Of a stretch of 64,000 bases of DNA, positions 3,066 through 10,343 are shown piece by piece (positions within the stretch are counted from its first letter, which is position 1; the number at the start of each line of letters is the position of its first letter). The stretch lies in NCBI GenBank assembly GCA_016193285.1, contig JACPSL010000029.1, positions 1 through 64,000 on the forward strand, in the 5' to 3' direction. Made by a program: the position numbers and the translations under genes. Under the pieces are notes generated by a model. It was not told the DNA's origin. It did no database searches and saw only the letters and a list, made by a program, of their open reading frames with translations. Origin of the DNA: Candidatus Melainabacteria bacterium (lineage in GTDB: Bacteria; Cyanobacteriota; Vampirovibrionia; 2-02-FULL-35-15).

Positions 3066-3093
3066 TGTTTACTCCTTTTGAATTCCTTAATTA

Positions 3094-3117
3094 ATTCTCA
3101 ATTCTCAATTCTCAATT
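3094..3117. repeat. Tandem heptanucleotide repeat ATTCTCA, 3.4 copies
   Basis: Three perfect copies of ATTCTCA (3094-3114) plus a partial one lie between rpsK and rpoA, just upstream of the rpoA ribosome binding site. The same unit recurs four times at 6121-6148. Seven-bp tandem arrays are reminiscent of the STRR repeats of filamentous cyanobacteria. Confidence 0.9.
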
Positions 3118-5988: not shown

Positions 5989-6014
5989 AGCTTTTAGCTA
6001 AAAGCTATTATAAT
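5989..6014 (+). promoter_or_regulatory. Palindrome plus TATAAT -10 box, predicted leaderless promoter
   Basis: A perfect 18-bp palindrome, AGCTTTTAG and its complement (5989-6006), is followed directly by TATAAT (6009-6014), itself inside the palindromic octamer ATTATAAT. Transcription should begin 6-7 nt further on, at or next to the in-frame ATG 6022, leaving no leader for a Shine-Dalgarno. The ATG at 6013 overlaps the -10 box and is unlikely to be used. I see no convincing -35; the palindrome occupies the spacer and could be an operator. Confidence 0.5.
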
Positions 6015-6021
6015 GGAACTG

Positions 6022-6954
6022 ATGAGAGACCAGAGACTAGAGACCAAAGACCATAGACCAAAGACCAGAGACCAGAAAAGAGTCTACAGTCTATGGTCTA
6101 TAATCTTTTGTCTCCTTTTAATTCTCAATTCTCAATTCTCAATTCTCAATTCTAAGTCCTATGCCCGTGCTCCTCGCCTTGTAATAGTTGGCTCTACAAC
6201 AATGCTTCCCTTATCAGAACACTTAGCTACAAAATACAGAAAAGATGTTGGTGCTGAAGTCTTAGTTCAAGGGGGAGGTTCAAGTGCTGGACCAATTGCA
6301 GTCTTAAATAATATTGCTCAGATTGCAGCAAGTTCAAGAAAGTTTACACAAGAAGAAGCAAATAATTTAAAAGTATTTGTAGTTGCACATGATGTTCTTG
6401 CAATTGTTATTCACCCTTCAAACCCAGTTAATAATATTTCAATGGAGCAACTGCGTGATATCTTATCAGGCAAAATTAAAAACTGGAAAGATCTTGGTGC
6501 TCCATTTGATAAGCCCATTCAATTAATCAATGATTCATCAGGCAACGGTACACGTGCAGCAATTGAAGAGCTTGTAATGGAGAAATCAAAAGAAAAAGGA
6601 ATAAAAGGTACTCCCATCACATTAAAGTCAATTGTTTCAAATTCAAGTTCAGAAATGAAAGCTAACATTGCAATTTTTAAATATTCACTTGGCTATCTGC
6701 CTTTTAGTTATCTTGATACTACTGTTAAAACATTATCTATAGATAATGTTCCACCAACTTATGCAGCTGCATACAAGAAAAAATATCCTCTTTTTAGGGA
6801 TCTTTACTATGCAATTAAAAAAGATTCTACTGACTTAGAGTTAGCATATATTTACTATGTGTTAAGCGAGGAAGGGCAGGATATAGTAGTTCAAGAAGGT
6901 TTTTTGCCAGTTAAATTGATAACATCAGTAGAAGAGTTAAATAAATTAGATTAG
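6022..6954 (+). CDS. PstS-like periplasmic phosphate-binding protein
   Basis: About 310 aa. The mature part starts with RLVIVGSTTM-P-L and contains V-QGGGSSAG-P-I, a hinge with V-H-P-S-N-P-V, DILSGKIKNWKDLG, DSSGNGTRAAI-E and N-S-S-E-M, all typical of PstS/PBP-like_2 proteins that bind phosphate for the Pst ABC importer. No pstCAB follows. The signal peptide is odd: the charged n-region (R-P-K-T-R-D-Q-K) and the hydrophobic core (Y-S-L-W-S-I-I-F) are encoded by 7-bp tandem repeats, and the region before the cleavage site by ATTCTCA repeats. Start 6022 is preferred over 6013 because 6013 overlaps the -10 box. Confidence 0.85.
   Translation: MRDQRLETKDHRPKTRDQKRVYSLWSIIFCLLLILNSQFSILNSKSYARAPRLVIVGSTTMLPLSEHLATKYRKDVGAEVLVQGGGSSAGPIAVLNNIAQIAASSRKFTQEEANNLKVFVVAHDVLAIVIHPSNPVNNISMEQLRDILSGKIKNWKDLGAPFDKPIQLINDSSGNGTRAAIEELVMEKSKEKGIKGTPITLKSIVSNSSSEMKANIAIFKYSLGYLPFSYLDTTVKTLSIDNVPPTYAAAYKKKYPLFRDLYYAIKKDSTDLELAYIYYVLSEEGQDIVVQEGFLPVKLITSVEELNKLD
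6026..6153. repeat. Three adjacent heptamer arrays encoding a signal peptide
   Basis: Seven copies of nAGACCA (6026-6074), then about five inverted copies of the GGTCTAT type (6081-6115), then four perfect copies plus a partial of ATTCTCA (6121-6153). The first two arrays are mutually complementary and would fold into a long imperfect hairpin at the 5' end of the mRNA. All lie within the coding sequence of the PstS-like protein. The GACCA/GGTC pair recurs at 8145-8220. Confidence 0.9.
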
Positions 6955-6995: not shown

Positions 6996-8141
6996 ATGAA
7001 AAAATATTTTGCAAGCTGTTTAATTTTCTTGATTTTATTTCTCCCAACAGGTTGTCTTAAACAAGATGTAATTGAAGATGTTTATAAAGTTGCAGTAGTT
7101 GCACCACTTACTGGTACTGATCCAGCTCTTGGAGAGTCAGTAATTAATGGAGCTGAGCTAGCAGTAAAGGAGGCTAACGAAGAAGGTGGAATTGAAAGGA
7201 AGAAATTAGTTTTAATAAAAGAAGATGATGGTGGCTTAGTAGGTGAAGGAGCTTTTTTTGCTTATCGTTTGACAAGAACTGATATGGTTCTTGGAGTAAT
7301 TGGCCATCTTGACTCAGATATTTCTATTCCTGCTTCTGAATTTTATGCTCGTGCAATGATTCCACAAATAACTCCAGGTAGTACAAGCCCATATTTTACA
7401 GAGAGAAAAGCAGTAAATGGATATGTGTTCAGAACTATAGGGAGAGATGATACACAGGGTAAAATTCTTGCAGATTATATTATTAAAAATGGTTTTAAGA
7501 GAGTTGCAATATTACACAATGGCAGGGAATATGGTCGTAGTTTGGCGGGAGAATTAGCAAAGTCTTTAAAAGTAAATTCAAAGCCAGTCTTAAGACCTGA
7601 AATTGTTTTTTATAATAAAATTGAACGTGGGAAGAAAGATTATGGTGCACTTTTATCTCAAATTTCATTTGTAAAACCAGATATAGTTTTTCTTGCAGGA
7701 GAGTATAACGATGCAGGATATTTGGTAAAAGATTTTTCTAAGTATGGTTTAACAAGTACAAAGTTTATTGGTGGCGATGGTGTTTATCACAATGAGTTTA
7801 TTCAAATTGGTGGAAAAAGGACAGAAGGTGCAGTTGTAATATCAGCTCCACCCATTGTAAATAAAGAGTTTGTTACAAAATATAAAAAACATTTTCAACA
7901 TGAACCAACTGGCTATTCAGCAAACACTTATGATGCTACAAATATTTTAATAAGTGCAATTAGAAAAGTAAAGGAAAAAAGTCCAGAAAAAATTGCAATG
8001 GAAGTTGCAAAAACAAATCATTTTAATGGTGTAACAGGAGTAATTACATTTGACAAAAATGGTGATTTAACTACAAAAGGATTTGTTTTAAATAAGGTAG
8101 TAAATGGAAAGTTTGAGGTGATTGAAAATGGAAACACGTAG
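6996..8141 (+). CDS. LivK-like ABC substrate-binding lipoprotein
   Basis: 381 aa. Signal peptide with lipobox L-P-T-G-C, so Cys20 is the lipidated residue. The mature domain is a type I periplasmic-binding fold (Peripla_BP_6, branched-chain amino acid/amide binding): V-A-V-V-A-P-L-T-G, G-A-E-L-A-V-K-E-A-N, E-D-D-G-G, SDISIPASE, ITPGSTSP, FRTIGRDD, and Y-S-A-N-T-Y-D-A-T near the C-terminus. AAAGGA lies about 9 nt before the ATG. It follows the PstS-like gene by 41 bp and overlaps its paralogue. No permease or ATPase gene is present. Confidence 0.88.
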   Translation: MKKYFASCLIFLILFLPTGCLKQDVIEDVYKVAVVAPLTGTDPALGESVINGAELAVKEANEEGGIERKKLVLIKEDDGGLVGEGAFFAYRLTRTDMVLGVIGHLDSDISIPASEFYARAMIPQITPGSTSPYFTERKAVNGYVFRTIGRDDTQGKILADYIIKNGFKRVAILHNGREYGRSLAGELAKSLKVNSKPVLRPEIVFYNKIERGKKDYGALLSQISFVKPDIVFLAGEYNDAGYLVKDFSKYGLTSTKFIGGDGVYHNEFIQIGGKRTEGAVVISAPPIVNKEFVTKYKKHFQHEPTGYSANTYDATNILISAIRKVKEKSPEKIAMEVAKTNHFNGVTGVITFDKNGDLTTKGFVLNKVVNGKFEVIENGNT

Positions 8142-9315
8142 AACAAGACCACAGACTATAGACTATAGACAAGGGGCCATAAAAAGGTCTATGGTCTATG
8201 GTCTATGGTCTATAGTCTTTCTCCTAGTGGGTTGCAGCAAATCACCAACTGTTAGTCAGTCATTAAGCAAAAATGATGACACTTACAAAATAGCAGTTGC
8301 AGCCCCTCAATTTGGTCCATATAAAGCATTAGGTTTGTCTATAGTTCATGGCGCAGAACTTGCCGTTGACTTAATTAATCAAAGTGACGGCATTGGTGGT
8401 AAGAAAATTGAGTTAGTTAATGTTGATGATGGAGGATTAGCTGGTGAAGCTACTCTAAGAGCAAGAAGTTTAGTTGATCAAATGGTCTTAGGTGTAATTG
8501 GACATTTAAATTCAGACATATCAATTCCAGCTTCTGAGGTTTATTCAAAAGCAATGATCCCTGAAATTTCTCCTGCTTCAACAAGCCCTCTTTTTACTGA
8601 AAGAAAACCAGTAAGAGGATATGTTTTTAGAACAATTGGCAGAGATGACAAGCAAGGCAAGGTGTCAGCAAGTTTTGTACTTGAAAAAGGTTATAAAAAA
8701 ATTGCTGTTCTGTATAACAATAGAAGTTATGGACAAAGTCTTGCATCTGAGTTTGTAAAAGAAATAAACTCAAATCCTAAGGATGCAGAAATTGTTTTTT
8801 ATGAAACTTATAAAGTTGATACAAAAAATTATGCGAAAGAAATTAATTCTATAAAAAGTAAATCTCCAAATCTTGTATTTTTTGTAGGTGAATATGGTGA
8901 TGCAGCTAAGTTTCTTAAGCAAATGAAAAACTTAGGACTTAGTGTAGCTTTTCTTGGCAGTGAAGGAGTATTTGATCAAGAGTTTATAGAAGCTGCAAAA
9001 AATGCAAGTGAGGGAGCTTTAGTTATTTCTCTTAAGCCAGTTATAGACAAAGACTTTCTAGAAAGTTACAAGAAGAAATTCAACAAAGAACTTGGTGCTT
9101 ATTCTGCAAACTCTTTTGACGCAACAAATATCTTAGTCTCAGCAATAAAAAAAGTAAAAGAAAAGAACCCAGAAAAAATTGCAAGTGTAATTAAAGAAAC
9201 AAAAGATTATCCAGGCTTAAGCGGCAAAATTTCATTTGATGCAAATGGTGATTTATTAAATCCTGCATTTTCTATATACCAAGTAAAAAATGGAATGTTT
9301 ATGGCTATTAAATAA
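8128..9315 (+). CDS. LivK-like ABC substrate-binding lipoprotein, tandem paralogue
   Basis: 395 aa, the same fold as the preceding gene and clearly its duplicate (shared SDISIPASE, STSP-F-TERK, G-Y-V-F-R-T-I-G-R-D-D, Y-S-A-N-S-F-D-A-T). Lipobox L-L-V-G-C with Cys36. The ATG at 8128 is preferred over the in-frame TTG at 8122 because GAGGTG at 8115-8120 is correctly spaced only for 8128. The gene overlaps its neighbour by 14 bp. Residues 7-30, the n- and h-regions of the signal, derive from a 7-bp repeat array, unlike the signal of its paralogue. Confidence 0.87.
   Translation: METRRTRPQTIDYRQGAIKRSMVYGLWSIVFLLVGCSKSPTVSQSLSKNDDTYKIAVAAPQFGPYKALGLSIVHGAELAVDLINQSDGIGGKKIELVNVDDGGLAGEATLRARSLVDQMVLGVIGHLNSDISIPASEVYSKAMIPEISPASTSPLFTERKPVRGYVFRTIGRDDKQGKVSASFVLEKGYKKIAVLYNNRSYGQSLASEFVKEINSNPKDAEIVFYETYKVDTKNYAKEINSIKSKSPNLVFFVGEYGDAAKFLKQMKNLGLSVAFLGSEGVFDQEFIEAAKNASEGALVISLKPVIDKDFLESYKKKFNKELGAYSANSFDATNILVSAIKKVKEKNPEKIASVIKETKDYPGLSGKISFDANGDLLNPAFSIYQVKNGMFMAIK
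8145..8220. repeat. Complementary heptamer arrays encoding a lipoprotein signal peptide
   Basis: Left array: four degenerate nAGACNA copies (8145-8172). Right array: four perfect tandem copies of GGTCTAT (8186-8213) plus AGTCTTT. The two are complementary across a 13-nt spacer, giving a potential hairpin. The right array is read as S-M-V-Y-G-L-W-S-I-V-F, the hydrophobic core of the signal peptide. Same family as 6026-6115. Confidence 0.92.
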
Positions 9316-9534: not shown

Positions 9535-9887
9535 ATGCACATCAAGATAAAAAAACGAACGAATAAGAATGGAACTGTAGTTGAATATGTTCAACTGATC
9601 GAATCATATGTTAGTAAAGAAGGTAAACGCAAACATAGAGTGTGTTTTTCTGTAGGTAGAAAAGATGATCCTAAACTCCAAGAGAAAATTGAGAAGGCTA
9701 CTTTTAAACTTGCAAAACTTGGAAATATTACAAGCTTAGTAAACCTAAATGAAGAACTTGCTCATGTATGGTCAAAGAGTGTAGGTCCATGTTTAGTTTT
9801 TAGAAAACTATGGCATGATTTGGATTTTAACGTAATTTTTGAAGGTGAATATCATGAAGAAATTTTTATGATGGTGGTAAGTAGATA
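9535..9887 (+). pseudogene. IS1634-type transposase, N-terminal fragment cut by an IS200-like insertion
   Basis: About 118 residues from ATG 9535 (in-frame TTG at 9529 also possible): MHIKIKKRTNKNG, Y-V-Q-L-I-E-S-Y, R-V-C-F-S-V-G-R-K-D-D-P-K-L, W-x-x-L-D-F-N-V-I-F-E-G, matching the N-terminal domain of IS1634-family transposases. The frame enters the left hairpin of the inserted element and stops at TAA 9898. After the element, 10409-10470 contains T-D-R-R-E-S-G-R-F-type codons that could be a remnant of the same gene, but most of the DDE domain is missing. Confidence 0.65.
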
Positions 9888-10343
9888 CCCACGTCCGTAA
9901 GGACGTGGCACTTTGAACAGTTTCAGCTGATATTCTCCTTTATCAATTTCTTCCTGATTCTCTACATATTTCCTTATTTCTTCCTCATCCATTCCCACTG
10001 TCGACGAAAAAAATCCGGGCGACCAAAATACTCCTTCTTCCCAATATACTCTCCGTATACTTCTTACTTCTCTCCTGATTTTTCTCCCGCTATTCTGTTT
10101 CATCTTTCCTATAATTTCTGATACTGCATATCTCGGTGGTATTTCTACAATCAAATGCACATGATCTGGTTGCATATTCATTTGTACAACATGAACATCC
10201 GGATGATAATTGCTTACTTCTTTTATATATTTCTCAGCTAATACTTTGACTTCATCTACAAGAACTTTTTTCCTATACTTCGGTATCCACACCACAGGAT
10301 ATTGGTACCTATATGCTCCATGTGAACTTAGTTTTATTTCCAC
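9852..10343 (-). CDS. tnpA: IS200/IS605-family Y1 transposase TnpA
   Basis: 163 aa from a GTG start. HUH-type single-strand endonuclease: metal-binding His61-Val-His63 in QPDHVHLIVEIPP, catalytic Tyr126 in IRKYVENQ, plus IPKYRKKVL near the N-terminus. It cuts and rejoins the element's ends as single strands. The last 20 or so residues are encoded by the right-end hairpin and flanking DNA, because the frame reads out of the element; the natural stop may have been altered or lies in the target DNA. Confidence 0.9.
   Translation of the reverse strand: MEIKLSSHGAYRYQYPVVWIPKYRKKVLVDEVKVLAEKYIKEVSNYHPDVHVVQMNMQPDHVHLIVEIPPRYAVSEIIGKMKQNSGRKIRREVRSIRRVYWEEGVFWSPGFFSSTVGMDEEEIRKYVENQEEIDKGEYQLKLFKVPRPYGRGYLLTTIIKISS

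Follow-up and report, generated by a model that had tools for sequence, protein, structure and literature searches.

The opa genes of Neisseria carry coding repeats of CTCTT in their leader region, with which phase variation has been demonstrated (PMC3960869, PMC5354566). Rickettsia palindromic elements (RPE) are about 105-150 bp in length and belong to families of fixed sequence (PMC2229807, PMC10969869), and the RU-2/YPAL element of Yersinia, which is 168 bp long, lies in the signal peptide of YPO1552 (PMC2229807, PMC2759123). Heptanucleotide repeats such as TAACTGA are dispersed in Beggiatoaceae and Cyanobacteria (PMC4679880).

The locus analyzed here is the 5′ end of a pstS-like gene in the window, a stretch of 64,000 nucleotides from a Candidatus Melainabacteria bacterium, and the features of this stretch are collected in Table 1. 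The locus resembles opa in that a non-triplet, pyrimidine-rich tandem repeat lies in the signal-peptide coding region and a change in the number of units shifts the reading frame. However, the opa unit is 5 bp long, is confined to one strand without a hairpin, and does not make the charged n-region, whereas the units found here are dispersed throughout the genome and also occur within housekeeping genes. Like RPE, the element forms dispersed palindromic hairpins that lie between genes and, in many conserved protein genes, in frame. Unlike RPE, it is, as judged by architecture, a variable array of 7-bp units and not a conserved sequence of 105-150 bp; it encodes the same peptide in all frames and forms signal peptides. 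RU-2 is a single element found mainly in one gene of unknown function, whereas here several unrelated repeats are involved, in several genera, in genes for known binding proteins. The TAACTGA repeats are likewise scattered 7-bp tandem units that are mainly intergenic, but they contain a stop in one orientation and lie mostly upstream of genes, and the text consulted reports no role in signal peptides (PMC4679880). Opa, RPE and RU-2 each share one part with the hairpin signal peptide. A literature search, which did not extend to most subscription journals, found no paper that ties non-triplet hairpin repeats to signal peptides, nor any system that combines frame-independent units with a single hairpin as the source of both signal-peptide regions and with recurrent replacement at orthologous genes.

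Table 1. Coordinates of the features discussed in the text (positions in the window).
Feature	Position	Strand	Evidence
Intergenic AATTCTC array, between rpoA and a 124-aa ribosomal-protein-like ORF	3093..3117	+	TRF, ORF context
Conserved TATAAT (-10-like), in CTATTATAAT	6009..6014	+	Upstream of gene; overlaps the ORF caller's ATG 6013
Gene for PstS-like substrate-binding protein	6022..6954	+	PF12849, E 4.5e-38; probable start ATG 6022
AGACC heptad array, 7 units, left hairpin arm; codes for charged n-region RDQRLETKDHRPKTRDQK	6025..6076	+	TRF, unit list
GGTCTAT-type heptads, right hairpin arm; code for VYSLWSIIFCL, start of hydrophobic core	6081..6115	+	Direct reading, folding
AATTCTC heptad array; codes for ILNSQFSILNS between core and cleavage site	6120..6153	+	TRF 100%
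Non-repeat c-region and junction K-S-Y-A↓R, kept in kind among orthologues	6154..6168	+	Alignment of 11 orthologues
Second hairpin signal peptide METRRTRPQTIDYRQGAIKRSMVYGLWSIVFLLVGC (lipobox LVGC) of Peripla_BP_6 lipoprotein	8128..8235	+	TRF 8186-8218, GGTCTAT x4.7
Gene for Peripla_BP_6 lipoprotein	8128..9315	+	PF13458, E 8.4e-50

The original prediction held that 7-bp arrays encode the n-region, the hydrophobic core and the stretch before cleavage, and the arrays were confirmed by direct reading, the list of units, TRF and shuffling. The nAGAC[C/T] units begin at 6026, 6033, 6040, 6047, 6054, 6061 and 6068, and TRF returned a period of 7 with 7.4 copies for 6025-6076. These units are imperfect, as one of them reads AGACT and four different bases occupy the n position. 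Units of the opposite strand follow at 6081, 6088, 6095 and 6102; these four are clear, while the last of the five inverted GGTCTAT-type units that had been predicted is the degenerate TGTCTCC at 6109. The third array consists of four exact AATTCTC units at 6120, 6127, 6134 and 6141 (TRF, 4.9 copies, 100%), and this heptad was found at 18 places in the genome, compared with 0 for the reversed-pattern control. Period-7 self-match in the arrays was 21/21, which was reached by 0 of 200 dinucleotide shuffles, and chance is therefore excluded. The AGACC and GGTCT arrays pair as a hairpin of -32.4 kcal/mol (z -5.2), and 0 of 200 shuffles were equally stable. The genome is a draft of 39 contigs, so the array lengths may be misassembled. 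Three points are absent from the original prediction, namely the origin of the inverted arms in a single hairpin, the frame independence of the heptapeptide, and the recurrence of the arrangement at 8128-8235.

Since 7 is not divisible by 3, a heptad array encodes one and the same peptide in every frame, and units of 8 bp likewise give one peptide from all three frames. The AGACC strand, as AGAGACC, encodes the charged RDQRPET, whereas the complementary strand, as GGTCTAT, encodes the hydrophobic GLWSMVY. AATTCTC encodes ILNSQFS, and TCTTTGCT encodes SLLLCFFA, with SKEAKKQR on its complement. Judging from these translations, complementary strands tend to encode opposite hydropathy.

The ORF caller placed the start of the pstS-like gene at 6013. 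Because this ATG overlaps the conserved TATAAT, and because of the frame of the arrays, the next in-frame ATG, at 6022, is probably the start. The orthologues mostly start later, which counts against ATG 6022 and leaves the start codon uncertain. A scan of the frame of the gene found no ATG, GTG or TTG after 6022 and ahead of the mature domain, and the frame runs through all three arrays into the PBP_like_2 domain. Upstream, ATTATAAT is present in 11 of 11 orthologues, although the neighbouring upstream gene differs in this genome. The spacing from the TATAAT to ATG 6022 is just 7 nt, and the mRNA, if started at 6022, would be leaderless or nearly so. A palindromic CTATTATAATAG is also common to the orthologues (upstream of L050-L059), where it separates the pstS-like gene from a divergent gene with a RecN-like N-terminal sequence; it is possibly a two-way promoter. 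In terms of the product, the name of phosphate-binding protein that had been proposed stands only in part. The binding domain is PstS-like, but the score for TIGR02136 (NCBIfam) was 176.3 bits against the 206.6 needed for PstS, and two Peripla_BP_6 lipoproteins adjoin the gene. For these reasons "PstS-like" is the safer name.

The encoded N-terminus has features of the Sec (SPase I) type, with a net charge of +4, a best 12-residue Kyte-Doolittle value of 3.01 and an S-Y-A↓R junction. The n-region charge (+4) and core hydropathy (3.0) are in line with those of the orthologues; the 4 acidic residues that the n-region also holds count against it. It is plausible from these features that the arrays encode the signal peptide of the pstS-like binding protein, and the array-coded peptide presumably works in export. 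The orthologues in ten genomes of the same family are 68-77% identical and have in common the mature part and a small-x-Ala↓Lys/Arg junction; their signal peptides differ and are differently encoded, and the AGACC array is absent from all ten. The best match, G001, has an LWSVVFC core, TCTATGGTCTGTAGTATTTTGC, that is identical in 18 of 22 nt to the core from the GGTCTAT array, a level of identity that occurs in 5 of 1.2 million windows. Because of this similarity, the hydrophobic core may in part predate the arrays. In G005, CTCAATTCTCAATCC stands before the cleavage site, where this genome carries the AATTCTC array, and the n-regions of the G009 and G010 orthologues hold another repeat, GTCATTGCGAGG. 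With the exception of the homologous G001 core, orthologues that encode the same residues without repeats, which would speak against a repeat origin, were mostly not found, as the residues differ. From this comparison the promoter-like box, the mature domain and the cleavage site appear to be inherited, while the n-region and most of the remainder appear to be repeat DNA.

The repeat is not restricted to this gene. AGACYANAGACYA has 104 occurrences in this genome, compared with 21 for the reversed-pattern control, and 0-5 matches in each of 59 related genomes; among 386 genomes of the phylum, no other than this one contains the 19-base GGTCTAT pattern TATGGTCTATGGTCTATGG. The matches group into about 25 loci, with the single element at the overlapping contig ends L160 and L171 counted once, and many of them are hairpins whose A-rich centre, for example CTACAAGAAGGTC or ACAAAAAGGTC, recurs. 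This genome was read in targeted stretches and an 800-kb sample. The plan of the element, which is lineage-specific, is [nAGACCA]n - A-rich centre - [TGGTCTn]n. The intergenic units are mostly ATAGACC, which results in a stop in every frame, and the T that makes the stop (TAG) is present in 13 of 52 charged coding units versus 34 of 44 noncoding units. This avoidance is partly built in, as "coding" was defined by the open frame and the units within one array are not independent; the genes that flank the coding units are conserved independently of that definition. Genome-wide dispersal and the in-frame copies described below support the earlier proposal of a route from non-coding repeats to a signal peptide, as the element is dispersed, mostly of non-coding type, and has turned coding. 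The reversed control pattern, of the ATCAGANATCAGA type, occurs 70 times in the whole genome of G009, which may have a heptad family of its own. An IS200-like Y1 transposase gene (PF01797) is located at 9852-10343 of the window, near repeat-bearing genes.

Copies of the element are also read within conserved enzymes. AlaRS contains an in-frame charged copy, and 10 orthologues without the copy have a shorter variable loop. The in-frame copies in PurL and acetyl-CoA synthetase fall in gaps relative to solved homologues, and further copies were found in MutL, HemC, menaquinone decarboxylase, CDP-alcohol transferase, CobS and the PurC-PurS linker. The coding strand is the charged strand in the soluble enzymes and the hydrophobic strand in CobS, a membrane protein. 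In general, charged copies are located in loops, linkers and C-ends, and the hydrophobic strand is used in signal peptides and one membrane segment. The AGAGACC array of mutL lies in frame after the N-terminal domains, at about residues 362-370 (L161 2948-2974; own genome, C8); were mismatch repair impaired by it, growth of repeats could be favoured. Besides its AGACC array, the acetyl-CoA synthetase gene carries a second heptad, GCTGATT, that codes for KQSAISNQQS (L240 16720-16750), and a 526-aa ORF (L254 11435-11830) holds two long in-frame octad arrays, of up to 11.8 units, that code for NLETSKPQ repeats. All 11 genomes examined have PurC fused to PurS (L283-L292 and L170 7547-7580), with a different tandem or palindromic repeat in the linker of about 7 of the 11, as judged by eye. 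The repeat was rejected as the cause of the fusion, since every one of the 10 family members has the fusion and the linker alone has changed.

The second hairpin signal peptide of the window is made of the same AGACC and GGTCTAT units and folds at -44.9 kcal/mol (z -6.3); the signal peptide of the paralogue upstream of this gene, at 6996, is an ordinary one (z 0.1). The G007 orthologue of the 8128 lipoprotein draws its signal peptide from an unrelated octad hairpin, CAGAGAAR/CTTTGYYT (octad AGAGAARC), and that octad also supplies the signal peptide of another G007 gene and is inserted in frame in RuvX. A patatin-like protein of this genome has a signal peptide from a AAGGTTAC hairpin, and the octad TTCTTTGCTTCTTTG is rare outside the family. 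TRF detected 80 period-7/8 arrays per Mb in an 800-kb sample of this genome and 64 in a 390-kb sample of G007, compared with 32 per Mb in 80 unrelated loci; shuffled sequence gave few. Given the density in the unrelated loci, the idea that such arrays are unique to the family was rejected as an absolute. Hydrophobic arrays made up 7 of 14 N-terminal arrays versus 4 of 35 internal ones (Fisher p 0.007). When 1894 N-terminal and mid-gene segments from two genomes were ranked by folding z, the top three were all hairpin signal peptides, and pstS, added by hand for comparison, ranked fourth (948 N-terminal segments with pstS included, and 947 mid-gene segments).

We consider it quite likely that a dispersed, lineage-specific 7-bp hairpin at the 5′ end of the gene was taken over as the signal peptide of the pstS-like protein. 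The anatomy, the dispersal, the in-frame insertions and the recurrence in other genera can all be read from the sequence. In the proposed mechanism, a hairpin of 7-bp units at the 5′ end of the gene would be read through, with the AGACC arm giving a positively charged n-region and the complementary arm a hydrophobic core. Arms that are charged and then hydrophobic would suffice for a Sec signal peptide, whose requirements are loose, and a second heptad, AATTCTC, would lengthen the stretch up to the conserved, non-repeat cleavage site. This and other 7/8-bp repeats would be kept where the encoded composition is tolerated, and selection presumably sorted the repeat copies.

It is unlikely that ancestral signal-peptide DNA simply slipped into heptads in place, with no dispersed element arriving. 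The 18/22 identity of the G001 core and the presence of CTCAATTCTCAATCC before the G005 cleavage site point in this direction, and local expansion may hold in part for the AATTCTC array and for the core. However, the same units and similar hairpin centres occur at about 25 loci, and slippage alone leaves the complementary left arm unexplained. An mRNA element in the 5′ leader, with the arrays untranslated and the true start downstream or rare, is very unlikely. All orthologues have a signal peptide at this position, the gene's frame stays open through the array, there are zero in-frame ATG, GTG or TTG codons from 6022 to the mature domain, and the second hairpin-bearing gene, which has a good Shine-Dalgarno-like GAGGTG, likewise reads through its hairpin. 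These points weigh against the overlap of ATG 6013 with the conserved TATAAT at 6009-6014, the stability of the hairpin, and the copies between genes that could act on RNA, all of which are consistent with a leader element.

The non-triplet arrays between the start codon and the mature domain also suggest a phase-variable switch, in which slippage would turn the binding protein on and off, and the Opa leader-region repeats do switch in such a way (PMC3960869, PMC5354566). By calculation, the pstS-like gene behaves as opa would, in that its reading frame depends on how many units the non-triplet signal-peptide repeat contains. Gain or loss of 1 or 2 AGACC units removes every in-frame ATG, GTG or TTG, while a change of 3 units stays in frame. 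The earlier claim that export is what would be switched is not supported in that form, as the whole protein would be lost. Against a switch of either kind, the imperfect AGACC units lower slippage, and the orthologues are without such arrays. Charged arrays are also found inside genes such as AlaRS and PurL, which should not be switched off without harm, and non-triplet arrays alone therefore imply no switch. We regard phase variation as quite unlikely. For the 8128 gene, an ATG within the GGTCTAT array stays in frame (MVYGLWSIVFLLVGC) after many changes in unit number, among them all of the gains tested, and a product started there would be without the charged n-region.

Takeover of a dispersed hairpin is the reading that we prefer for the pstS-like gene. 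For the family, the chances seem to us evenly balanced that short-lived, lineage-specific 7/8-bp repeats continually serve as material for rebuilding signal peptides and interdomain linkers, with a single hairpin delivering a ready-made n-region and core. A single hairpin at the start of a gene would give both because its strands encode opposite hydropathy. The mature domain and the cleavage site are kept across at least 8 genera, while the signal peptide is rewritten, in some of them by unrelated repeats. For annotators, in-frame repeat peptides in the enzymes of such genomes need not be domains. The rule that non-triplet hairpins read as charged and then hydrophobic, whatever the frame, allows a prediction of the sites at which such elements can be kept. 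The origin of new signal peptides has usually been argued from random sequence, and here its steps are dated. Since sister genera have repeatedly built such tags from different repeats, repeat DNA may be a cheap source of new export signals.
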